In this document: one piece after another, positions 2,975 to 20,759 of the stretch
Layout: the number at the start of each line of letters is the position of its first letter
How positions within the stretch are numbered: position 1 is the first letter of the stretch
Source: a virus
Length of the DNA: 20,759 nt
Reading direction: 5' to 3' (one strand)
IMG/VR virus record: IMGVR_UViG_3300042090_000593
Location: 1-20,759 of that record
Notes under the pieces: generated by a model
What the model was told of the DNA's origin: nothing
Database searches by the model: none
The model's input: the letters and a program-made list of their open reading frames with translations, nothing else
Translations under genes and position numbers: made by a program

Positions 2975-3670
2975 ATGAGCGGGACCAGCGGAACGTACCT
3001 TTTTGCGCCAAGTTTGGGGGAAACAGCTCTCTACGCCTTCAGCATGATCGGGGTGCGCCGCACGGCCGTAACCACGGATCATATGGTCGATGCACGGTAC
3101 GCCGTGAATATCATGCTCGCGGAATGGAGCAATCGCGGCGTCAATCTCTGGGAAGTAAAGCTCAACACGACGGCGCTGGTTCAGGGAACGCAAGTTTACC
3201 CCGTCCCGGCCTGGTGCGCGATGACCCTCGACGCCTATATCGAAACCGAAACCGGGACGTCCAATCCGATCGACCGGACGATCAGGGGGATCAGCCGCTC
3301 GGAATGGGCGCAGCAGCCCAACAAGCTGCTTCAGGCGCCCCCGACGCTCTATTGGTACGATCGCCTGATTGCGCCGACGATTACGATGTGGCCGGTTCCC
3401 GATGGTAATGGGCCGTACAACCTGAATTACTATTACGTTTCGCAGATTCAAGACGCCAATTTCGTCGCCGGGCAGACGGTCGATATCCCCTACCAGTGGC
3501 TCCGCGCGCTCGCTACCGGCTTGGCGGCCGAGCTCTGTCCCGCTCACGCGCCCGACAGGGAGCAGGCGCGGAGGGCCGATGCCGAACGGGCGTTCGAGAT
3601 AGCGGCCGGCTGGAATGTGGAAAACGTCCCTGTTAATATCTCTCCGGCTCTTGGAGGGTATTTTAGATGA
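2975..3670 (+). CDS. Head-tail adaptor, P22 gp4 / T7 gp11-like
   Basis: A 231-residue protein with the layout I know from short-tailed phage adaptors: an N-terminal helix starting with ETALYAFSMIGV, then TTDHMVDARYAVNIMLAEWSN, where helices stack around the portal, then a beta domain with VQGTQVYPVP, ISRSEWAQQPNK and TITMWPVPDG, and a final helical segment with PYQWLRALATGLAAELCP and many acidic and basic residues. Such proteins bind under the portal ring after DNA packaging, keep the DNA in and provide the dock for the nozzle. Length fits the family. The stop overlaps the next start as ATGA. The gene order (head genes before, tail genes after) agrees. The family match is from recall of the pattern, not a search. 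Confidence 0.75.
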   Translation: MSGTSGTYLFAPSLGETALYAFSMIGVRRTAVTTDHMVDARYAVNIMLAEWSNRGVNLWEVKLNTTALVQGTQVYPVPAWCAMTLDAYIETETGTSNPIDRTIRGISRSEWAQQPNKLLQAPPTLYWYDRLIAPTITMWPVPDGNGPYNLNYYYVSQIQDANFVAGQTVDIPYQWLRALATGLAAELCPAHAPDREQARRADAERAFEIAAGWNVENVPVNISPALGGYFR

Positions 3671-7831: not shown

Positions 7832-8146
7832 ATTTACGTAGGAAGAGACTATGATGTCTGCGACTCTGTGGAAACAGAGGCTTATGGAATGAATTTTGTC
7901 AACGATCTCGCGCCCGGCGACAGTATCGTCGGGGCGACCTGGATCGTGACCGTTTCTCAGGGGGTCGATCCGAACCCCAGCGCGCGGCTCGTCAATACGC
8001 CGTGGCTCGTCAACCCGACGACCACCTCGCAACTGATAACCGGGGGCATCCCCGGCGTAAGCTATTGCATCCAGGTCGTGTGTCCCACGGCTTTCGGCAT
8101 GACGATCAGTCTTGTCACGCATTCCCGCTGCGAGGTTGTCAGTTGA
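7832..8146 (+). CDS. Small beta virion protein, probable fibre-tail adaptor type, ATT start
   Basis: A 104-residue protein if it starts at the ATT at 7832, 97 residues shorter than the usual neighbours. The frame has a pattern D-x-x-E-x-x-x-Y-x-M-N-F (residues 11-22) followed by NDLAPGDSI and VGATWIVTV, which matches, in order and spacing, the D-P-x-E-x-x-x-Y-x-I-D-F/W, then GDxI, then xTW pattern I know from small beta proteins near phage tail fibre genes. The conserved Asp at 7862 is upstream of the first ordinary start codon (GTG 7868), so translation must start earlier; ATT with AGGAGG 5 bases before it is the only candidate. GTG 7868 and ATG 7889 remain possible shorter starts. A C-terminal GGIPGVSYCIQVVCPTAFG and SHRCEVVS follow. 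The stop overlaps the next start as TTGA. Length corrected: the ATT form is 104 codons plus stop. Confidence 0.62.
   Translation: MYVGRDYDVCDSVETEAYGMNFVNDLAPGDSIVGATWIVTVSQGVDPNPSARLVNTPWLVNPTTTSQLITGGIPGVSYCIQVVCPTAFGMTISLVTHSRCEVVS
7851..7892 (+). other. 13-codon ORF overlapping the small beta protein
   Basis: ATG ATG at 7851 with AGGAAG at 7840-7845 opens a 13-codon frame (MMSATLWKQRLME) that ends in TGA at 7890-7892, overlapping the ATG at 7889 as ATGA. It could be a leader that couples translation to the internal ATG, or chance. I do not claim it as a real protein. Confidence 0.25.
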
Positions 8147-8847
8147 CCTACTCCGATTACGTCGCAATACTTCAAAAGCTATTGACGGTCCCGACGATCG
8201 ATAACGTATTTCTTTCGGTCATTCCGCGCATAATCGACTATGCCGAACAACGGATTTACCGCGAGGGACAGTTTCTGGCGACGGTCGTCACGGATTCGAC
8301 AGTCGCGCTCGCGGCGTCCAGCCGGATTCTGCCGCTCCCGTCCGATCAGCGCCTCTATGTCGTGGACGACGTGAACGTGATCACGCCGGCCGGCACGACA
8401 AACCCCGATCTAGGCGTCCGCAACACGCTCACGCCGACGACCAAGGAATGGCTCAACCAGGTGTGGAACAGCGCCGCCGGCGCGGCCCTCCCGCAATACG
8501 TCGCGCGCTTGAACGATCAGACCATGATCGTCGGACCGTGGCCAGACCAGGCCTATCAAATCGAGTTCGTCGGCACGATCCGGCCGACGCCTTTGAGCGC
8601 GGCCAATCCGACCACGTTTCTTTCGCTCTATCTGCCCGACTTGTTCGTGGCGGCGTCGATGATTTTCGGCACTGGCTGTCAGCGCGATTTCGGCGCGCAG
8701 AGCGACGATCCACAGGCGGCGGTGAGCTGGGAGCGGGTTTATGGGGAGCTATTCGCATCCTCGAACATGGAGGAGGCAAAGAAACGATGGTCGATAGGCG
8801 CGGCAATGCCCCCGCCGCCTCCCGCTCCTCAGACAGCCGTGCAGTGA
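8143..8847 (+). CDS. Phage adaptor protein, SU10-adaptor-like, TTG start
   Basis: A 234-residue protein starting at TTG 8143, which overlaps the previous stop as TTGA and has GAGG at 8132-8135, 7 bases before; longer upstream reading gives out-of-character sequence. The protein opens with a helix (TYSDYVAILQKLL), then DNVFLSVIPRIIDYAEQRIYREG, a beta part with SSRILPLPSDQRLYVVDDVNV, a TPAGTTNPD segment, and a last helical part with LSLYLPDLFVAASMIFGTGCQRDFGAQ and SWERVYGELFASS. This is the pattern of the short-tailed-phage adaptor family named after phage SU10, which binds the portal and joins it to the nozzle. The nozzle gene follows after 6 bases. A Pro-rich tail (PPPPPAPQTAVQ) ends it. Confidence 0.76.
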   Translation: MTYSDYVAILQKLLTVPTIDNVFLSVIPRIIDYAEQRIYREGQFLATVVTDSTVALAASSRILPLPSDQRLYVVDDVNVITPAGTTNPDLGVRNTLTPTTKEWLNQVWNSAAGAALPQYVARLNDQTMIVGPWPDQAYQIEFVGTIRPTPLSAANPTTFLSLYLPDLFVAASMIFGTGCQRDFGAQSDDPQAAVSWERVYGELFASSNMEEAKKRWSIGAAMPPPPPAPQTAVQ

Positions 8848-8853
8848 CCGCGG

Positions 8854-10914
8854 ATGCCCTACCAGAAGATCACCGTCAAGCCCGGCTTCAACGTCCAAGC
8901 CACGCAGCTTTTGAACGAGGGCGGATGGTCTTTCGGCAATCTCGTCCGATTCCGATACGGCCTGCTGGAGAAGATCGGCGGCTGGAAGCAATTGTTCGCG
9001 ACCGCGCTCGCCGGCATAGCGCGCGCGCTGCACGCTTTCGAGGACTTGTCCCTGGTGAATACGCTGCTGATCGGAGGAGACGGCGGCCCTCAGATTTATG
9101 CCGGCGGCGTCCTGTACCCGGTGACTGAAGCATCATTTGGAATCTACGGTAATGTCACCATCTCGGCTTCGGCAGGATCAAACATCGCGACAGTCAGCGA
9201 TATCAATTCTGCGATCACGGCGGTCGGGCAATCCATAGCGTTGACCATGTTGACGACGCTGGGCGGCGAAGTGTTCCAGGCCGGCACGACATTCACCGCA
9301 GCGTCAGTGATAAGCCCCTCATCCTACACATTTTTATTGCCGTCCAACGCGACGACGAACGCGTCTTCATCCACTCCTCTTTTCAATTTTCCAGCCGGGA
9401 GCGGCGGCAACGTGACGGTCACGCTGACTGGCCACGGGTTCGTCGCTGGCAACCTGTTCAAAGTCGACCTGTCTACAAACTATCAGACCACCAGCGTCAG
9501 CGGACTTCTTTCGTTCAGCGCGGCGGGAGGCAGCACGTATCCGGTAGTAAGCGTGATAGACGCAAACAATTTCTTGATATCCGGATTTACTTATATCAAT
9601 TACACAGGCGCGCCGTCTGGGACATTTGCAGAGGGGCAAGTTTATAACGGGACCGGATCCCCGACGGAGCCTCCGGTCGTTGCATATCCGGCGCCGGCGT
9701 CGCCTGTAGGAAATCCATGGTTCGTAGACAACCTGGGAACCAACGGCCTCATTCTGGCCCAAGGCGGGCGCATTTGCGTTTATACTCCGCCGGTCTTTTC
9801 CGGAGCGTATGTCGGGGCGATAGGGGCCGGAAATCCGTTCACGGCGTCGCAGATAAACAACGGCATGTTTGTTGCGATGCCGCAAGCTCAAATCATTGCG
9901 TTCGGAACGGAGCCTGTCTTTGGCTCCGGCCTGGTCGATCCGCTCCTGGTCCGGTGGAGCGATGCGGGCAGCTATCTCGTCTGGACGGCTTCGGTGACCA
10001 ATCAGGCGGGCAGCTTCCGCCTATCCCGAGGCTCGAAAATCGTCGGAGGCTTGCAGGCGCCGCAGTCGTCGCTGCTCTGGACCGATGTCGATCTCTGGTC
10101 GATGGCGTATATCGGTCAGCCGCTGATCTACAGCTTCACCACGGTCGCGTCCGGGTGCGGCCTGATCGGACCTCACGCGGCCGCCGTGCAGGGGCGGAAT
10201 ACGTATTGGATGAGCCAGAACGCGATATGGAGCTTCGGAGATTATGGCGCGCAGGCGATCGACTGCCCGCTGTGGGACTTGATTTTTCCGGTTCTGGATC
10301 GCGCCAATGCGGAAAAGGTCACGGCGGGATCGAACTCGGCGACGCAAGAGATCAAATTCTTCTATCCGGTGATCGGAGGGAACGGCGAAAATCAGAATTA
10401 CGTGATATACAATACCTTGGAGCAGTTGTGGAGCTATGGGCAGGCCAATCCGCCATTGGTTCAAAACGCGACGCCGTTCGCGCGCTCCGCCTGGATCGAC
10501 GAGAGCGTCTTCGGCAGCCCGATCGGCGCGGACCCGGTTTCGCTCCTGGTGCAGCAGCATGACGTGGGTTACGACGCCAACGGCGCGGCGATGACCGGTG
10601 TTTACGCCGAAACCGGCTTTTTCGATATCGGCGACGGGACGACAATCCCGTTCCTCGATCAGATCATTCCGGATTTCAAGTGGTTCGGGACAAACGGTTA
10701 CGCAGAATTGACGCTGTGGGCGCAAGGAACGTCGGGCGGCGCTCCGACGATGTACGGTCCGTTCCCGGTAACGCCGACAACGGGAATCATCTCGACCGGC
10801 GGCATCCGAGGCAGGCAAATCGCCCTTCGGATCGACTGGGGCATCGAGGATGGGTTCAGCGCGCGATACGGCGCGCTGCGGGCGCGGATCGCCCCATCAG
10901 GAAGGGTGCAATAA
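8854..10914 (+). CDS. Tail nozzle / hub protein, P22 gp10 / T7 gp12-like
   Basis: A 686-residue, beta-rich protein. The N-terminus has LNEGGWSFGNLVRFRYGLLEKIGGW, where the arginines and a GGW turn are typical of the nozzle/hub family; the C-terminus ends with RGRQIALRIDWGIEDGFSARYGALRARI, and a TYWMSQNAIWSFG / QEIKFFYPVIGGNGENQNYV region sits between, like a propeller blade series. Such proteins form the tube-shaped hub below the adaptor through which DNA passes. Residues about 90-290 (DNA 9120-9720) are Thr/Ser/Asn-rich, less GC-rich to the eye and not clearly part of this pattern, so an inserted or added domain is likely. One base overlaps the next start (TAATG). Confidence 0.74.
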   Translation: MPYQKITVKPGFNVQATQLLNEGGWSFGNLVRFRYGLLEKIGGWKQLFATALAGIARALHAFEDLSLVNTLLIGGDGGPQIYAGGVLYPVTEASFGIYGNVTISASAGSNIATVSDINSAITAVGQSIALTMLTTLGGEVFQAGTTFTAASVISPSSYTFLLPSNATTNASSSTPLFNFPAGSGGNVTVTLTGHGFVAGNLFKVDLSTNYQTTSVSGLLSFSAAGGSTYPVVSVIDANNFLISGFTYINYTGAPSGTFAEGQVYNGTGSPTEPPVVAYPAPASPVGNPWFVDNLGTNGLILAQGGRICVYTPPVFSGAYVGAIGAGNPFTASQINNGMFVAMPQAQIIAFGTEPVFGSGLVDPLLVRWSDAGSYLVWTASVTNQAGSFRLSRGSKIVGGLQAPQSSLLWTDVDLWSMAYIGQPLIYSFTTVASGCGLIGPHAAAVQGRNTYWMSQNAIWSFGDYGAQAIDCPLWDLIFPVLDRANAEKVTAGSNSATQEIKFFYPVIGGNGENQNYVIYNTLEQLWSYGQANPPLVQNATPFARSAWIDESVFGSPIGADPVSLLVQQHDVGYDANGAAMTGVYAETGFFDIGDGTTIPFLDQIIPDFKWFGTNGYAELTLWAQGTSGGAPTMYGPFPVTPTTGIISTGGIRGRQIALRIDWGIEDGFSARYGALRARIAPSGRVQ

Positions 10915-11135
10915 TGCCTCCTAACCAGCCTCCGGGCGGCTCGCCGGTCAACATCGATCTGGTGGTCCAGGCGCTGAAGGCGATCGCGCAGGCGTGCAAC
11001 GCGCAGGCGACGGCGATCGGCGATGTGTTTCCGACCACGGGGGCGATCTCGACGACAGACAGCGGCGCTTCCGGCAAATATCTGACCATCGTCGTCGGCG
11101 GGACGGCGTATAAGCTGGCCCTGCTGCTGCCATGA
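10914..11135 (+). CDS. Small virion-operon protein, 73 residues
   Basis: The start ATG at 10914 shares a base with the previous stop (TAATG), and AGGAAGGG (10899-10906) lies 7 bases before it. The protein has a helix (LVVQALKAIAQACNAQATAIGD), a Thr/Ser-rich loop (residues 41-53) and a closing hydrophobic hairpin (KYLTIVVGGTAYKLALLLP). I recall short proteins of this make-up following nozzle genes in alphaproteobacterial prophages: a Q/A-rich helix then a glycine-turn strand. The helix could trimerise as a coiled coil. Function unknown. The stop overlaps the next start as ATGA. Confidence 0.7.
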   Translation: MPPNQPPGGSPVNIDLVVQALKAIAQACNAQATAIGDVFPTTGAISTTDSGASGKYLTIVVGGTAYKLALLLP

Positions 11136-11626
11136 ACGCGCCGCTTCGCCCAGCCACTTTCGAGCCGCAGCCGGATCGCGAAATCCGGATCGCGGACGCG
11201 GGCGACCGTTCGTGCGTGATCGAACTTTGTCGCCGCTTGCGCGAGGAAGGCGGAGCGCCTCCGTTGGCGATTCCCGAGGTCGAGCGCCTTGTGGACCGCG
11301 GACTGGCGAGAGAGAGAGCCGTGCTGCCCGTCATCGGCGAGCGCGACGACCTTCGCGCCATGATGCTGCTGATTGTCGACGAGATTTACTATCCGGATGA
11401 TTATTGGCTAGCGGAGATCTGGAATTACGTCAGGCCGGACAGCCGAATATCGGCCTACGGTCGGCAGCTTTTGCGCTTTGCGATCGAATGCGCCGACCGG
11501 AGCGGACTGGAATTGTCGGCCAGCATTGTCGCGAACGACCGCCTCGATGGTAAATTGCGCATGTACGAGCGATTCCTCGGGGCGCCGCGCTGCGTTTTCG
11601 CCTACCGGCCGAAGGTGCTGACATGA
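11132..11626 (+). CDS. GNAT-type acetyltransferase-like protein 1
   Basis: A 164-residue protein with the GNAT layout: an N-terminal strand REIRIADAGD, a helix with CRRLREE, a strand pair, then strand with WLAEIWNYV (residues 92-100), a helix with AYGRQLLRFAIECADRSGLE (about 109-127) and the last strand LSASIVANDRLDGKLRMYERF. In GNAT enzymes the strand before this helix and the helix N-terminus hold acetyl-CoA; here the usual Q/RxxGxG/A signature is reduced to R-I-S-A-Y-G, so the activity is unproven. Very similar segments recur in the protein at 12708-13184. It overlaps both neighbours as ATGA, so it is an integral member of the late operon. Substrate unknown. Confidence 0.7.
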   Translation: MNAPLRPATFEPQPDREIRIADAGDRSCVIELCRRLREEGGAPPLAIPEVERLVDRGLARERAVLPVIGERDDLRAMMLLIVDEIYYPDDYWLAEIWNYVRPDSRISAYGRQLLRFAIECADRSGLELSASIVANDRLDGKLRMYERFLGAPRCVFAYRPKVLT

Positions 11627-13184: not shown

Positions 13185-16100
13185 ATGGGAGGCAAGACCT
13201 CTACCACGACGAGCACCAACACTCCGCCCGCCTCGGTTCTGGCCAACTATGGCACCCTGACGAGCGAAGCGAACGCGCTGGCCGCCCAGCCGATCACGGC
13301 TCCCCTGCAACAGACGGCGCAATTCAATCCGACGCAGGGACTGGCCACCGGGAACATCGCGCAGCAATACGGGAACCTCGGCGGCATATCGGACCAGCTC
13401 AACGGCACGAGCGAGAACGCTGGGAGCATCGGCACGAATTACACGGGGCTGGCGTCCCAGGCGCTCGGCGCCACGCAGCCCATCGCGGGCCAGATAGGGC
13501 AAACCGCGGGAACGCTCGGCTCCCTTTCTTCGGCCGCGGGGCAGGCGGCGACCGGGATAGGATCGCTCGCGAACGTCTATCAGCCCTATTACAACCAGGC
13601 GGAGAACTCCACGGCGACGGGAGCGAACATGCTCTCGCCGCAAAATTACGGGCAGAACGTCGCCCAGTTTCTGAATCCGTACACGCAGAACGTCGTCAAC
13701 GCGACGCAGGGGCAATTCAACAATCAGAACGCGATCCAGGGTTCCCAGCTCCTCGGCAGCGCCATCCAATCCGGCAACGCTTTCGGCGGCGATCGCGCCG
13801 GCGTGGCGCAGGCGGCTCTCGCCGGGCAACAGCAATCGGCAGAGGCCCCGGTTATCGCCGGCCTGGAAAGCGCGGGCTACACGAACGCACAAGGCGAGCT
13901 GAACACAGCAGCGAATACGGCCCTGCAAGCCGGCCAGCAGTACGGCAACCTGGGGACAGGCGCGGAGGCCGCTGCGCTGGCCGCTCCGCAAGCGATGATC
14001 ACCGGCCTGGGCGCAGCTGGAAATCTCGCGTCGTCGCAGGCGGGAGCGCTGTCCGGTCAGGCCGGCGCGCTGAACCAGGGCTATGCGACAGCCGGCAACC
14101 TCAATGCCGGCGCGCTCTCGGCTCTCGGCACGCAAAACCAAGGAGCCGCGCTGCAACAGGCCAACAACCAGCTCGGGGTGACGGATTCCAATGCCCTGCT
14201 CGCGGCGGGAACGCTGGCCCAACAGACGGCGCAGGCGACGGACACGGCGGCCTATCAGCAAGCCGAGAACCAGATCGCCCTTCCGTATCAGTCGCTCGGA
14301 TTTGCGGCAAATATCGGGGAAGGGCTCGGCTCGAACTCGGGTGGGACGACGACCACGACGCAGCCCGCGCCGTTCTTTTCCGACGAGCGGCTGAAAGAAG
14401 ACAAAACGATCATCGGCAAAACCCGAGACGGGCAGAACCTCTACCGTTTCCGGTACAAAGGCGATCCGAGCTGGCGCATCGGCCTGATTGCCCAGGAAGT
14501 GGCGAAGAAGCATCCCGAGGCGGTTTCATCGCACGGCGGTTTGCTCGCGGTCGATTACAAGGCGGCGACCGACAAATCGGCGGGAAAGCGCGGCCATTTC
14601 GCGGCGGGGGGGCTTCCCATGCCGGGCACGGATGTGACGAGCCTGATACCGGACCCCGATCCGCTCACGGCCAGCAACGGCATGGGGGCCGGCATGCCTC
14701 AGCGCAGCGGCGGCACGCAACAGCCCAGCGCCGCCGCCCAGGCGACGCAGGCCATGCAAGAGGCGAACACGGCGATCGGCTTCGGCAAGAATGTCGCTCC
14801 GGCGGTATCTGGCCTGGGCAGCGCGTTGGGATTTGGCGCTCCCGCGGCGGCCGGGGCTCCCATGGCGCTCGCGGGCGCGGTCGGAACCGTGGACGCAGCC
14901 GGCGCGGCGGCCGGGAGTTCCGCGCCGTGGCTGCTGGACTTGGCGACTTTGGCCGCGGCGCGCGGCGGCCGGATCGCAGCGCCCCGGCGCGCGGGCAACT
15001 TCGGGATGCTGAAGCGATCCGCGGGAGGACGCGCGGGATACGACGACGGCGGCTCCGTGTACGGAGATTTGTCGCAAAACGACTTGGCTTCGCTGCCTCT
15101 CGCCGTCGGCAACGCCGGCATGAGCGCGACGCCGGTCGGGTACGATCCCAGATTGTCGGACGAGGCCGCGTCCTGGCCGGGCGGGGCATCGCCCAACGCT
15201 CCTCCGCCGTCGCCCATGGGAACGCTCGCGGCGGCGATGCAAAACCCGGCTCCGGCGAATTCCAACGTGGGCACGATCGGCCAGATCGCCGACGCGTTCC
15301 CCACGGCTGCGGTCACGGCCCCCAACCCGATGGCGGTCGCGTTTCAGGGCGTCGACCGGCTTGGCCCCGATGCCGGCGCGCCTATGGGAGATGCGGTTCC
15401 GTCGCTTACTGCGTCCCGGGCCACTGACTACGCCAATCAAATGCCGCAGCCGACGCAGGGGAGTTTGGGTGGGGTGGCCGCGTCCAGTCCAGCGCCGAGC
15501 GCGCCTGAGGCGGCGCCGTCCAGTCCCGTGCCGAGCGCGCCAGCGATCCCGATGCGGCCTCAGACAGGCAGTCTGGGAGCGTCGGCTCCTGCTGCTGTCG
15601 CCCCTTCCGGAAGCTTGGCGGGAGCTGCGCCGCCATCCAGCGGCCCGTATCTGAGCGGGAGGTTGCCGGCGACAGGCACGATGGGTAGCGCGCCGGCCTC
15701 GAGCAGTCCAATCGCGGCAGTTCCCATGACGCCGTCCGAGCGGGATTTGGCTATTCGGACGGTTTACGGCGAAGCGCGCGGCGAACCTCCCGTCGGCCAG
15801 GCGGCGGTCGCGAGCGTGATCAGAAACAGAACGCTTTCCGGAGGGTCGAACGTCGGCTCCGTCATCACGTCTCCCTATCAATTCTCTGTGTGGAACAAAG
15901 GCGATCCGAACGGAGACATCGCGCGAAAGCTTCAGCCGGCCGATCCCGCATACCGGAAAATAGGCGCCATCGTCGATGGCGTGATGGCCGGCAAAACTCC
16001 GGATCCGACGAATGGCGCCTCCAGCTATTACAACCCGGCAGAGGCATCGCCGGCATGGGGGCCGAAGCTCGCGCAAGAAAACGACGTCACGATAGGCAAT

Positions 16101-17981
16101 CATCGGTTTGTAGGCTCGATCGACGGCGAGGGCGCCGGCTCTTCGGGCACGGGCTACGCGCCAGCGTCGACGCTTGCTGGCGGCGCGGCTCCGCGCGCGA
16201 TCGCCGCCGCGTCCACTCCGAGCGGCACACTCGGCGGGGCGCCTCCGTCCGCCTCGAACGACAACGGCGCCGACAAGGGCCTCTTCGGCACGGGCATCAA
16301 GATCGCCCCAGAAATGGGGCAGGCGCTTCTCGCTGGACTGTTCGGGATGCTCGGGTCCAACTCGCACTGGCTCCTCCCGGCGATCGGCCAGGGCGGCCTT
16401 GCCGGCATGGGGCAGTACAACACGGCCGTCACGAACGAGCGGCAGAATGCGCTGGTAAACAGCGAAGTCGCGAAGAACACGATGGGGATGTTGCAGGGAC
16501 GGTTCACGCCGATGCGAGATGCGGCCGGCAATCTCTCGTACCTGGACGGAGTGACCGGTAACGTCCTGAACCAGCAACAGCATCTGGCTCTCTTCCAGCA
16601 AGCCGTCATCGCGGCAGGAAATCCCGCGCTGGCCGGGCTGACGAATGGGGCCGCTGGTTCGGCGGCCGCCCCGGCGCCGGCCGTAGCGTCTGGGGGAAGC
16701 GGCGCCGCCACAATCCCTCCCGCCGCCGGGCCAATGGCCGCCGCCGGCGCGCCGCCGCCAGTGAGCGTGGCCGCCGCGCCGCCGATAAGCCCGCCAGCAG
16801 CCGCCGGAGCAGCAAACCCGCCGGCGCCGTCCACGATCGATCCTGACGTACTGAAGGCTAGAGCGGCGGCCAATGCCGATCCGGAGATTGCGCGTCTGAC
16901 GCAGCGCGCCGACGCGTTGAATGCGCAAGCTGATCACCTGGACGCGGTCGCGCAGCAAAATACGGGCTTTAACAAGGACGTCGCCGAGCAAGCGCGGGGC
17001 CAAGCCAACGCGGTGCGTCTGCAGGCGCAAAATATGTCTACGCAGGCCCAGACGCAGCGCGCGCAGCTTATGGAAACAGCAATTGCGGCATCTAAAGCGA
17101 GAGCGGAGGCTGAGGCTAAGTCTCAATACGACCTCGTCGAGATGCAGCCAACGCCAGGGGGGCCTACGGAATGGGTGCCTAAGTCGCGAGTGCTCGCCAT
17201 GACGAAGAGCAATCCAAATGCGGCGCCTGTCGGCATTGGCCCTGGCTCGCCTCCAGGCGCCGCGGTCGACGCGGCGGTGGCGGCAAATCCAGCAATCGCC
17301 AAGCAGCCGGGATTTTATGCGGAAAAGCAGAAGGCTATTGCCGATGACGAAGATAAGATGATCGAGCAGATGAAAACGCGGAATATCGCAAAGCAGCAAT
17401 TGCAGGCGATCCAAGGCGTCATGCAAACATACCAGCCCGGCGCTTGGGCTGAGCAAAAGGCGGACTTGGCCGGAAAATTGCGCGCGGTGGGGATAGATGT
17501 TCCGGCGAGCGCGACCGCCAATCCTGCCGCTTTCGAGGAATTCACCAAATACGCCACCGGCAACGTTTTCAACGATGTCAAGGGAATGGGAAGTAAGGTG
17601 TTGGTATCTGAGATCGAAACCGCGAAAAAGGCAAACGCCAACCCCGGAATGCAGCCTGAAGCGAACGCTGCGATTATTGGCCGTGGCTTGGGAGTAATAA
17701 ATTATGAAAATCAGCATACGAACGATTATTTCGACTGGAAACATCAGAAAGATGCTAACGGCAATATGCCAAATATGAATACGGTGGATACATCGACGTT
17801 TGAACTGCCGTGGCTTAATTCGCATCCGCTGCAACCATTTGTCGACCAAGCTAACAAGGGGATTGCTTATAAGGGTCAAGTCATCCCGCCAAATCCGGCC
17901 GATCGGATCGCGGGTCAGGCCTACATGACGCCCAAGGGCCCGTTTACTTGGACCAAAAACGGATGGCAGGCCCAGCAATGA
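13185..17981 (+). CDS. Giant virion protein with S74-type chaperone motif and SleB-type wall hydrolase
   Basis: A 1598-residue protein (GGGAG at 13172-13176, 8 bases before ATG). Residues 1-390 are Ala/Gln/Asn/Gly-rich, low-complexity and helix-prone. Residues 395-465 hold PFFSDERLKEDK, LYRFRYKGDPSWRIGLIAQEV and HPEAVSSHGGLLAVDYKAA, the pattern of the peptidase S74 / intramolecular chaperone domain of phage fibres, with S399 and K404 in the S-x4-K arrangement reported for self-cleavage. Residues about 500-845 are Pro/Ala/Gly-rich with a hydrophobic tract near 540-595. Residues about 848-975 (MTPSERDLAIRTVYGEARGE, VGQAAVASVIRNRT, YNPAEASPAWG) match SleB-type cell wall hydrolases, with the likely catalytic Glu at 863. 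Residues 1029-1078 contain LFGMLGSNSHWLLPAIGQGG; 1219-1313 form a coiled coil; 1386-1598 are charged and helical. Probably an ejected or tail-tip wall-piercing protein. GC falls visibly after about 17300. Confidence 0.78.
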   Translation: MGGKTSTTTSTNTPPASVLANYGTLTSEANALAAQPITAPLQQTAQFNPTQGLATGNIAQQYGNLGGISDQLNGTSENAGSIGTNYTGLASQALGATQPIAGQIGQTAGTLGSLSSAAGQAATGIGSLANVYQPYYNQAENSTATGANMLSPQNYGQNVAQFLNPYTQNVVNATQGQFNNQNAIQGSQLLGSAIQSGNAFGGDRAGVAQAALAGQQQSAEAPVIAGLESAGYTNAQGELNTAANTALQAGQQYGNLGTGAEAAALAAPQAMITGLGAAGNLASSQAGALSGQAGALNQGYATAGNLNAGALSALGTQNQGAALQQANNQLGVTDSNALLAAGTLAQQTAQATDTAAYQQAENQIALPYQSLGFAANIGEGLGSNSGGTTTTTQPAPFFSDERLKEDKTIIGKTRDGQNLYRFRYKGDPSWRIGLIAQEVAKKHPEAVSSHGGLLAVDYKAATDKSAGKRGHFAAGGLPMPGTDVTSLIPDPDPLTASNGMGAGMPQRSGGTQQPSAAAQATQAMQEANTAIGFGKNVAPAVSGLGSALGFGAPAAAGAPMALAGAVGTVDAAGAAAGSSAPWLLDLATLAAARGGRIAAPRRAGNFGMLKRSAGGRAGYDDGGSVYGDLSQNDLASLPLAVGNAGMSATPVGYDPRLSDEAASWPGGASPNAPPPSPMGTLAAAMQNPAPANSNVGTIGQIADAFPTAAVTAPNPMAVAFQGVDRLGPDAGAPMGDAVPSLTASRATDYANQMPQPTQGSLGGVAASSPAPSAPEAAPSSPVPSAPAIPMRPQTGSLGASAPAAVAPSGSLAGAAPPSSGPYLSGRLPATGTMGSAPASSSPIAAVPMTPSERDLAIRTVYGEARGEPPVGQAAVASVIRNRTLSGGSNVGSVITSPYQFSVWNKGDPNGDIARKLQPADPAYRKIGAIVDGVMAGKTPDPTNGASSYYNPAEASPAWGPKLAQENDVTIGNHRFVGSIDGEGAGSSGTGYAPASTLAGGAAPRAIAAASTPSGTLGGAPPSASNDNGADKGLFGTGIKIAPEMGQALLAGLFGMLGSNSHWLLPAIGQGGLAGMGQYNTAVTNERQNALVNSEVAKNTMGMLQGRFTPMRDAAGNLSYLDGVTGNVLNQQQHLALFQQAVIAAGNPALAGLTNGAAGSAAAPAPAVASGGSGAATIPPAAGPMAAAGAPPPVSVAAAPPISPPAAAGAANPPAPSTIDPDVLKARAAANADPEIARLTQRADALNAQADHLDAVAQQNTGFNKDVAEQARGQANAVRLQAQNMSTQAQTQRAQLMETAIAASKARAEAEAKSQYDLVEMQPTPGGPTEWVPKSRVLAMTKSNPNAAPVGIGPGSPPGAAVDAAVAANPAIAKQPGFYAEKQKAIADDEDKMIEQMKTRNIAKQQLQAIQGVMQTYQPGAWAEQKADLAGKLRAVGIDVPASATANPAAFEEFTKYATGNVFNDVKGMGSKVLVSEIETAKKANANPGMQPEANAAIIGRGLGVINYENQHTNDYFDWKHQKDANGNMPNMNTVDTSTFELPWLNSHPLQPFVDQANKGIAYKGQVIPPNPADRIAGQAYMTPKGPFTWTKNGWQAQQ
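14367..14583 (+). other. S74-type domain segment inside the giant protein
   Basis: This covers residues about 395-467. The SDERLKED core, with the probable cleavage before S399, the IGLIAQEV helix and the LLAVDY strand are the recognisable S74 parts. The domain is shorter than the 100-160 residues usual in fibre proteins, and lies at one quarter of the protein, not at its C-terminus. Confidence 0.65.
15726..16110 (+). other. SleB-type peptidoglycan hydrolase domain segment
   Basis: Residues 848-975. The VYGEARGEP loop with E863, the VGQAAVASVIRNR helix, the YQFSVWN region and the YYNPAEASPAWGPKL segment follow in the order seen in SleB-type lytic enzymes that cut the glycan strands of the cell wall. 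Confidence 0.78.
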
Positions 17982-20759
17982 GTGATGCCGGTTTTCTTTC
18001 GGATGCCGATGTCGGGCTGGATGATCCCCAGGTCGGTCCTCTTGCGGGTGCACCGCCGGCTCCGACGACCGATTCGGCGGGAAATCCGCTCGGCCCCGGC
18101 GACATTTTGGTCCGTCGTGGGCCGCGCGCAAAAACAAGCGTGTCCGCGCCGGTTTCGGCCGCGTCCCCAGGGGCGCCGAGCTATCTTTCTGACGCCGATG
18201 TCGGAATCCCGACGCCCTACACGGGCTCGACGGCTGCGGATGTCGCCAAGTCGACGGGCTCGGGTCTGATCAGCGGCGTCGAGGGGCTCGCCGGACTCCC
18301 CGGCGATCTCGAACGCGGCGCGAATTGGCTTATCAATAAGGCGACCGCCATTCCTGATTACGGAATGCTTTGGGCGCAGGGCAAGATCGCCGAAACAGCA
18401 GGGATGTTGCCGCACGGTCAAACGGCATCGACCTGGGCGTCGGCGAAGCTCGATGAACTCAATGCGGCTCGCTCTGGCCTGAATGCGATGCCGTCGAGTG
18501 CGGGCGTGAAAGGCGCGGCCACGGCGGCTGGCGTTCCCGACTATCAGCCGCAGACCGTGGCAGGGAAATTTGCGGGCACTGTCGCGTCGTTCGTCCCCGG
18601 CGCTCTGGCGCTTCCCGTCGACGGACCAGCGGCGGTTGCGGCCAACCTCGTGAAGTACGCGGCTATTCCCGGCGTCGCTTCGGAAGCGGCCGGCCAAATG
18701 ACGGCCGGAACGCCTTACGAGCCGTATGCGAGGGCTGTCGCGGGCCTCGTTGGTGGCGTCGGTTCGGATGTCGCCGCGACCGCTACCGGACTTGGAGCAA
18801 ACGCGGTCAAAAAGTACGTCGCGCCGATGACGGCCGAGGGGCAAGCGAACCTTGCCGCTACGACATTGCGCGGGGCTTTCACCGATCCGAATGCGGCAAG
18901 CGCCGAGCTGGCCAAGAATGCAGCGATGCAGCAACCCGGCCAAGGCTTGGGCGAAATCGTCCCCGGTTCCAAGCCGACGACAGGGCAATTAACCGGCGAC
19001 CTTGGCGCTCTCGCGCTCGAGCGCGACTTGGCGACAAAGCAGCAAGATCTTGCGAAGTCCAATTCGTTCGGGACAGGATCGCAGCAACAGAATGCCGCGC
19101 GGACGGCGGCGCTGAACGATATCCAGCCCGCGGGCTCACCGGAAGCTGTCGGGAACACGGTCCGACAGCGACTCGCAGACATCGAGGCGAGCCACGATGC
19201 CGCGGTTGCGAGCGCGGCGTCGAATGCTCAGAATGCGGCATCGGGCATCGGAACCGGAGCGGCGCCCGAGGATGTCGGCGCGAACATGCGGACGACGCTA
19301 CAAGGCGCGCGTGATGCCGCGAAAGTTCAAGAGCGGCAATTGTGGAATGCGGTCGATCCCGATGGCACGCTTGCGCTTCCTGCCGATCCGATCTCGAGCG
19401 CCGCCGCAAGCATATCGTCGAGCGTGCCGAAAACCGCAAAGCCGATGTCCGGAGAGGAGGATGCGATTTTCGCCACGGCCTCGAACCTGCCTACAGTTGC
19501 TCCTTTCTCGGACATCACCGCGTTGCGCAGCCGCATTTCGTCGGCGATGCGGCAGGAACTCATGATGGCTGGATCGACGCCGACATATGGGCGCCTCTCG
19601 CAATTGCGGGGGTCGGTCGAGGACGCTATAACGAATGCGGCATCGAACAAAGCGACACAAGAGCAAGCTGCAGTCGCAGCCGGATCGCTCGCTCCCGAGC
19701 AGACGCTCGCCGCTAAACTTCAGGCTGAGGCCGATGCTTTCAAGCAATCCAGAGCCCAAGCCCAAAGCGCCGGGCCAAACGCTGGCGGAAATCCTGCGGG
19801 CAATCCACCCATCGGACCAACCGGCTTTTCTGGCGCTGTTGGAGCAAAAATACCGCCGGCTGGGGGACTTGGAGGTTCTCCGGGAGCTGCGGGCCTACCG
19901 AGATCAACGCCACCACTGACGCCCGTCGATCCCGCAGCCGCCGCCCGCCTGCAAGCCGCATCAGCAGCCACGAAAGCCCGCGTCGCGACCTTCGATACTG
20001 GTCCGGTAGGCGCAGCGCTGAAAAAGGCCGGCAACTCCTCGGAATACCGCGCGCCAGATTCATCGCTTCCCGGCAAGTTCTTCGCTCCCGGCCCTGGCGG
20101 CGCCGAGAAGGTCGAGGCGTTCCGCGATGCGGCTCCGACGATGGATCCTGTCTACGATGCCGCGGCAGAAAGCTTGCGGCGCGAGGCGATGGCGCCGGAC
20201 GGGACGATCGATCCGGGGAGGTTCGCCGCGTGGCAGACGAAGCATCAGGACGCTTTGCGCGCCATGCCGCCGTCGCTTACCGACCAGTTCGCCACTGCGG
20301 CCAGAGCCTCGGACGCGGTCGCGGTCGCGGCTGAGGCCCGTAGGGCGGCAATCGACGGCTATCAAAAGAGCGTCGCCGGCAAGTTTCTCGGCCTAACCGC
20401 GCCCGAGGACGTGACGAAAACTGTCGCCGGAATTTTCGGCGCGAAAGACGCGGTTCGGCAGATGTCCGCACTAGCGCGCGAGACAGCGGCCAATCCGGAG
20501 GCGCGCGAGGGGTTGCGCAAGGCAGTCGCCGATATGATCCTCGCCAAGGCCACGGGCGTAACGGAAAACGGAGCATCGGGCATCGAGAACATCAACGCGG
20601 CCACGTTTCAGAAATTCGTCCGCGACAACGCGGCGACGCTAAAAGCTGCGGGTTTCTCTGACCGCGAAGTCGGATCGATGCAGGCCATTGCGCAAGACTT
20701 GCAGCGGTCGCAACGCACGCTGAGTGCGACGCGGCTCGCCGGACAATCCAATACGGCGC
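17978..20759 (+). CDS. Giant internal-virion-like protein, 3' end outside window
   Basis: The ATG at 17978 overlaps the previous stop as ATGA; the frame has no stop up to the window end (about 927 codons). Residues 6-13 and 69-76 hold the same aromatic-L-S-D-A-D-V-G motif. Residues about 85-260 have an LISGVEGLAGLPGDLERG helix, then YQPQTVAGKFAGTVASFVPG, a hydrophobic AVAANLVKYAAIPGVASEAAGQM and AGLVGGVGSDVAATATGLGAN, a pattern I recall from large internal or ejection proteins of alphaproteobacterial short-tailed phages. The remainder is helical and Ala-rich with charged heptads, except for a Gly/Pro/Asn-rich break (about residues 600-650). It is likely carried in the head and delivered into the cell, perhaps with the product of the gene before it. 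No enzyme motif is seen. Confidence 0.75.
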   Translation, partial: MSDAGFLSDADVGLDDPQVGPLAGAPPAPTTDSAGNPLGPGDILVRRGPRAKTSVSAPVSAASPGAPSYLSDADVGIPTPYTGSTAADVAKSTGSGLISGVEGLAGLPGDLERGANWLINKATAIPDYGMLWAQGKIAETAGMLPHGQTASTWASAKLDELNAARSGLNAMPSSAGVKGAATAAGVPDYQPQTVAGKFAGTVASFVPGALALPVDGPAAVAANLVKYAAIPGVASEAAGQMTAGTPYEPYARAVAGLVGGVGSDVAATATGLGANAVKKYVAPMTAEGQANLAATTLRGAFTDPNAASAELAKNAAMQQPGQGLGEIVPGSKPTTGQLTGDLGALALERDLATKQQDLAKSNSFGTGSQQQNAARTAALNDIQPAGSPEAVGNTVRQRLADIEASHDAAVASAASNAQNAASGIGTGAAPEDVGANMRTTLQGARDAAKVQERQLWNAVDPDGTLALPADPISSAAASISSSVPKTAKPMSGEEDAIFATASNLPTVAPFSDITALRSRISSAMRQELMMAGSTPTYGRLSQLRGSVEDAITNAASNKATQEQAAVAAGSLAPEQTLAAKLQAEADAFKQSRAQAQSAGPNAGGNPAGNPPIGPTGFSGAVGAKIPPAGGLGGSPGAAGLPRSTPPLTPVDPAAAARLQAASAATKARVATFDTGPVGAALKKAGNSSEYRAPDSSLPGKFFAPGPGGAEKVEAFRDAAPTMDPVYDAAAESLRREAMAPDGTIDPGRFAAWQTKHQDALRAMPPSLTDQFATAARASDAVAVAAEARRAAIDGYQKSVAGKFLGLTAPEDVTKTVAGIFGAKDAVRQMSALARETAANPEAREGLRKAVADMILAKATGVTENGASGIENINAATFQKFVRDNAATLKAAGFSDREVGSMQAIAQDLQRSQRTLSATRLAGQSNTA

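Follow-up and report, generated by a model that had tools for sequence, protein, structure and literature searches.

The window, by which we mean the whole stretch of DNA analysed (20,759 bases), carries a 1598-amino-acid ORF with an ATG start at positions 13185–17981 of the plus strand, as read from the window's ORF translation. The genes around it and the parts of its product are listed below by window position.

8002..8847, plus strand: SU10-type adaptor protein (PF24175, E 4e-14)
8854..10914, plus strand: virion structural protein (phrog_3287, E 9e-42)
11132..11626, plus strand: acetyltransferase-like protein (phrog_1249, E 2e-4); a similar gene precedes the S74 gene in phiGT1 and RHph_N2
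13185..17981, stop included, plus strand: gene for 1598 amino acids, assigned by sequence comparison as a fused ejection-protein gene
13185..14378, plus strand: part A, residues 1–398, rich in Gly, Ala and Gln, with an FGGDR motif at 200–204 (matches to PHROG 4287 and 6121; AF2 prediction all-alpha)
14379..14597, plus strand: short S74 module, residues 399–471, beta strands and one helix, with a short terminal helix replacing the long coiled coil
14379..14381, plus strand: S399, predicted nucleophile, at the predicted scissile bond F398–S399 (codon TCC; invariant in 125 modules; aligned to residue 1 of 3gud)
14394..14396, plus strand: K404, predicted general base (codon AAA; invariant in 125 modules)
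14598..15722, plus strand: residues 472–846, rich in Gly, Ala and Pro, with recurrent GG motifs
15723..16112, plus strand: SleB-like cell wall hydrolase domain, residues 847–976 (Pfam core 866–976)
16113..17978, plus strand: C-terminal part, residues 977–1598, also present in other fused proteins (e.g., L102: 31% identity over 195 amino acids, E 8e-26)
17978..20758, plus strand: next gene, at least 927 amino acids, joined to the stop of the fused gene by an ATGA overlap and running off the contig

An earlier note on this DNA had proposed an S74 core with S399 and K404 in the middle of the protein, followed by a SleB-type hydrolase, and had suggested profile searches as a check. Pfam placed Peptidase_S74 (PF13884) at residues 399–447, covering positions 1–57 of the 58 in the profile (E 3.9e-6, 27.5 bits against a cut-off of 22), a match that is above the threshold and not due to chance. 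Hydrolase_2 (PF07486) was matched at residues 866–976 (E 3.7e-14, 53.6 bits against a cut-off of 27), so both domains were confirmed, with S399 and K404 at the residues given in the earlier note. The spore_SleB model TIGR02869 also matched residues 847–976, but its score of 48.1 bits is far under the equivalog cut-off of 236.5, and the domain is therefore better described as SleB-like than as a spore cortex enzyme; its closest phage matches were SleB-like proteins of Rhizobium phages. From S399 to the C terminus there are 1200 residues, so the S74 domain of this protein is not C-terminal. Part A is conserved in the fused relatives described below. Residues 472–846 contain no second S74 module, whereas relatives with two modules have theirs in such a stretch, downstream of the first; a former, since lost second module in the window protein could not be demonstrated by alignment. 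The short motifs ARGG(R/L/V)I and (Y/F)xxGG recur in the low-complexity stretch past the first module, both in window residues 472–640 and in relatives. Opposite the fused gene, a 1203-amino-acid frame is open on the minus strand at 14526–18137; it is probably a composition artefact, given a GC content of 64% for the window and a GC3 of 75% for the sense gene.

The N-terminal region was matched by two phage protein families: phrog_4287 (DNA ejection protein) over residues 1–460 and phrog_6121 (virion structural protein) over residues 67–463. Both matches reach the ends of their own profiles, which indicates that S74 forms the C terminus in those families. Among the fused relatives, 32 of 33 matched phrog_4287 and all 33 matched phrog_6121. 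Adaptor and tail genes lie upstream of the fused gene, and a further large protein is encoded downstream. This downstream gene, at 17978, is probably another ejection protein by its position, and profile searches returned no family match for it. Its product opens with a short repeat, FLSDADVG...YLSDADVG, possibly a docking peptide; genes downstream of other fused loci begin with other repeats, for example LPDAPWA or FDWS. SU10-adaptor-like genes occur twice in the window, at 2975–3670 (E 6e-9) and 8002–8847 (E 4e-14), and resemble the dual tubeA arrangement reported for phiGT1 and Bcep22-like phages (PMC10386132).

The earlier note had placed the domain in the frame of trimeric fibres. A classical trimeric tail-fibre or tailspike chaperone, in an external protein that carries a wall hydrolase, would account for the PHROG tail-fibre side matches, which come through the S74 part, and for the annotation of the phiM5 homologue as a "putative tailspike." Such a fibre or spike is nevertheless very improbable, because the ejection-protein PHROGs span part A together with S74, the genes are ordered as they are around internal virion proteins, and neither a beta-rich stalk nor a coiled coil is predicted. 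We rejected it on family, synteny, and predicted structure; judged by the same three lines, the window protein belongs, in fused form, to the podophage ejection proteins and is no fibre.

In 33 relatives, 10 of them known phages, part A and S74 form a separate gene that ends 64–94 amino acids past the serine. Most of these stand-alone genes abut or overlap the following gene within a few bases, and in EBPR podovirus 2, NYA-2014a, phiGT1, and phiM5, the following gene is annotated as a peptidoglycan hydrolase or internal virion protein. For phiM5, the annotation notes virion detection; the homologue is annotated as detected in particles, with no location given. At several known-phage loci, the stand-alone gene comes after adaptor, tail, and acetyltransferase-like genes, a series comparable with that upstream in the window. 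Some next genes of split loci are also similar to the downstream region of fused proteins (L085 with L043 and L051, E 3e-12; L014 with L086, E 1e-16; L016 with L050, E 2e-7). Based on this split synteny and next-gene similarity, we read the window gene as two adjacent podophage ejection-protein genes fused into one. Residues 1–398 plus the S74 module (399 to approximately 471) correspond to the first gene, which is separate in many podophages, and the linker, SleB-like hydrolase, and C-terminal part to the following one. The stand-alone proteins phiGT1_17, NYA-2014a SUFP_020, EBPR podovirus 2 gp27, phiM5_27, and RHph_N2 EVC05_012 share with the window protein a short S74 with SDxxxK and, in several, the same genes before them and a hydrolase or internal virion protein gene next, but they stop right after S74, whereas the window protein runs on for approximately 1130 amino acids. 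In Chlorobiaceae phage CV-1-33, a 294-amino-acid part-A homologue (L011:7740–8624) ends without any S74 module; part A can thus do without S74.

Fusion is also seen in the internal virion protein D of phage isolate ct7L0027 (MW202675.1, UOF80297.1, 1185 amino acids), which, like the window protein, combines part A, S74 (beginning after residue 276), lysozyme-like, and C-terminal parts. It is shorter, and a transglycosylase-like sequence replaces the SleB-like domain. As a metagenomic virus contig, the window might owe the joining of two genes to misassembly or to a miscalled stop codon, but this is extremely unlikely: other contigs yielded 58 more fused ORFs, 42 of which have both of their ends, and the deposited circular genome MW202675.1 carries the 1185-amino-acid fusion. 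An artefact is contradicted by these independent fused genes and was rejected.

Relatives were collected by scanning IMG/VR with a narrow alignment of the S74 module, which confirmed at least 395, of which 80 were kept; a whole-protein search returned only two loci, both weak. The resulting set of 103 module-bearing ORFs represents collected loci and includes five with a classical fibre-type S74. Fifty-nine of the 103 were fused, the window included, and 28 of these had two internal modules; the 33 stand-alone genes described above belong to the same set. The mid-protein S74 singled out in the earlier note is not the oddity of a single gene, being shared by tens of relatives. An S74 match was obtained in 33/33 fused proteins, and their wall hydrolases were of five recognisable kinds (SLT, 3; Hydrolase_2, 3; GH108, 3; Phage_lysozyme2, 1; VanY, 1); judging from these domain matches, the hydrolase is swappable among fused proteins.

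Forms with a C-terminal S74 were found in isolate genomes of Bradyrhizobium, Methylobacterium, Mesorhizobium, and Rhizobium; long fused forms in the same bacterial-genome scan came only from metagenome-assembled genomes and may be viral contigs. Two Methylobacterium pseudosasicola ORFs (L111 and L119) have 182 amino acids from the S74 serine to the end, between the stand-alone and fused forms. Bradyrhizobium ORFs of approximately 765 amino acids, stop to stop (L118, L120, and L121), carry the short S74 at the C terminus. Short ORFs of 160–200 amino acids that end in a short S74 without a coiled coil (L125, L129, and L139) are from Roseicyclus, Tabrizicola, and another alphaproteobacterial genome.

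The module profiles matched solved S74 domains from the T5 long tail fibre (6f45), MYRF (7dc3), and GA-1 (3gud). The chain in 3gud, GA-1 gp12, starts at the serine aligned with S399, a start produced by its own self-cutting. PF13884 was matched by 63/63 modules of the module alignment. The solved domains aligned to the module are known self-cleavers (PMC8326128). With the S/K stretch left out of the model, 130 modules were recovered, in 125 of which SDxxxK was in register; the other five were all fibre-type, four of them classical S74 domains in which the motif was offset. S and K were kept in 54 of the 55 modules (17 clusters) that had not been found via the motif. Within the first 27 positions, only S, D, and K were invariant across first, second, and stand-alone modules alike (125 modules, 80% clustering), and the serine was encoded by 120 TCN and 4 AGY codons. 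The invariance and the use of both serine codon families fit selection for a Ser-Lys dyad, although the roles of S, D, and K could be structural instead. Second modules with an eroded C-terminal half retained SDxxxK (L092, L020, L023, L078, L093, and L095), even where the second half was lost (L092 and L020), so the motif alone is no proof of activity.

The stand-alone proteins finish 64–94 amino acids past the serine with no more than a short helix and lack the trimerising coiled coil (alpha4), whereas the classical S74 in L103–L106 runs on into a coiled coil; the module is therefore a variant and not a classical fibre S74. AF2 modelled the module with a pLDDT of 95–97 in a long construct and about 85 in a short one, with a beta hairpin at the place of MYRF helix alpha1. 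The part upstream was predicted to be all-alpha with low-confidence linkers and moderate overall confidence, and no beta stalk was predicted. Foldseek searches against the PDB gave no significant match for a 486-amino-acid model, which was mostly of low confidence. With a 96-amino-acid model of the module, the MYRF ICA came out on top, but with an E value of no better than 0.17 (probability 0.94), so the S74 family assignment rests on sequence profiles.

Given the sole invariance of S, D, and K and the retention of S and K in modules found independently of the motif, we lean towards S74 modules that actively cut. The explanation that we favour, by a modest degree, is a fused ejection protein in which the S74 module cuts before S399 during assembly. 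Residues 1–398 would become an N-terminal ejection protein, and residues 399–1598 would start with S74 and carry the wall hydrolase; the 398- and 1200-amino-acid chains calculated in the earlier note agree with this arithmetic. The head would hold both chains until their ejection at infection, when the hydrolase would open the peptidoglycan like T7 gp16, and relatives with two modules would give rise to three chains. In T7, the first ejected protein makes the outer-membrane pore and gp16 supplies the hydrolase (PMC8954989); by this analogy, which is one of position only, part A may form an outer-membrane pore and the hydrolase part may bring the hydrolase. In the split genomes there is no chain behind S74, so S74 must primarily serve part A, and separation of the hydrolase protein would be a consequence of the fusion. 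The proposal that one gene yields two virion products therefore stands as far as the possible chain lengths are concerned, but the two products would be a by-product of fusion.

The alpha4 coiled coil drives trimerisation of the MYRF ICA, which is needed for cutting (PMC8326128), and a leucine-zipper mutation stops MYRF processing (PMC3742443). With no coiled coil and a predicted helical upstream part, the textbook S74 mechanism cannot be transferred unchanged; we suppose that the modules meet when they are packed as a ring close to the portal. The same features would also suit a module that no longer cuts and acts as a small folding or docking unit, for example towards the portal or neighbouring ejection proteins, with the 1598-amino-acid chain packaged and ejected whole. 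No coiled coil follows the module, the upstream part is predicted to be all-helical without a beta stalk, eroded second modules still have SDxxxK, and T7 ejection proteins are octamers or hexamers, not trimers (PMC8954989). We regard loss of cutting as the less probable outcome, though one to be taken seriously: across the three module sets, which include the motif-independent finds, nothing but S, D, and K is invariant, and a purely structural role would not predict a dyad that is fixed while its neighbours vary. An inactive module would not by default be the trimerisation unit suggested in the earlier note, because trimerisation of MYRF is driven by a C-terminal coiled coil that these modules lack.

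If the preferred reading, cutting before S399, is correct, the module would be a smaller self-cleaving unit that provides ejection proteins at 1:1 (or 1:1:1) from one gene, and the cut could license ejectosome assembly. If the module is inactive, the invariance of S, D, and K needs another reason. The layout is common to dozens of uncultured phages, which means that their injection machinery may be a self-splitting polyprotein. Our broader proposal is more tentative and falls a little short of an even chance: the ejection apparatus of many uncultured podophages would be a self-processing polyprotein, in which one or two coiled-coil-free S74 modules yield two or three proteins without a classical trimer and outside fibres.

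No description of S74 in ejection proteins was found in the open-licence papers searched; the phiGT1 paper does not discuss the S74 domain, which is mentioned only in the phiGT1 GenBank note. Nor was a description found there of ejection proteins that unite coiled-coil-free modules, two modules in a single chain, and swappable hydrolases. An internal S74 as such does have precedents, although the earlier note had found none for an S74 with so long a functional part behind it: UniProt already lists long phage proteins as "intramolecular chaperone auto-processing domain containing protein," and MYRF has an internal ICA/S74. MYRF/MrfA resembles the window protein in having a mid-protein S74/ICA core with a Ser-Lys dyad (PMC3742443, PMC8326128), and its self-cut releases the N-terminal part while a C-terminal part of approximately 500 amino acids remains (PMC3742443); a C-terminal location is therefore not essential for S74. 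MYRF differs from the window protein in being eukaryotic, in its alpha1 collar and alpha4 coiled coil, in the beta stalk ahead of the core, and in spanning a membrane. T7 gp16 is, like the window protein, an ejection protein with a peptidoglycan hydrolase domain (PMC8954989). No sequence match was found between the two. T7 gp16 is not known to contain an S74. The phage fibre S74 chaperones (K1F endosialidase, GA-1 gp12, and T5 long tail fibre) have the homologous core and dyad, but they are C-terminal and trimeric, fold beta-helical fibres, and possess a long coiled coil. S74/ICA domains are discussed as chaperones of MYRF and of such trimeric beta-helical fibres, and the present analysis finds their dyad unchanged throughout a large family of DNA-ejection proteins that are predicted to be helical, sometimes with two modules in one chain.
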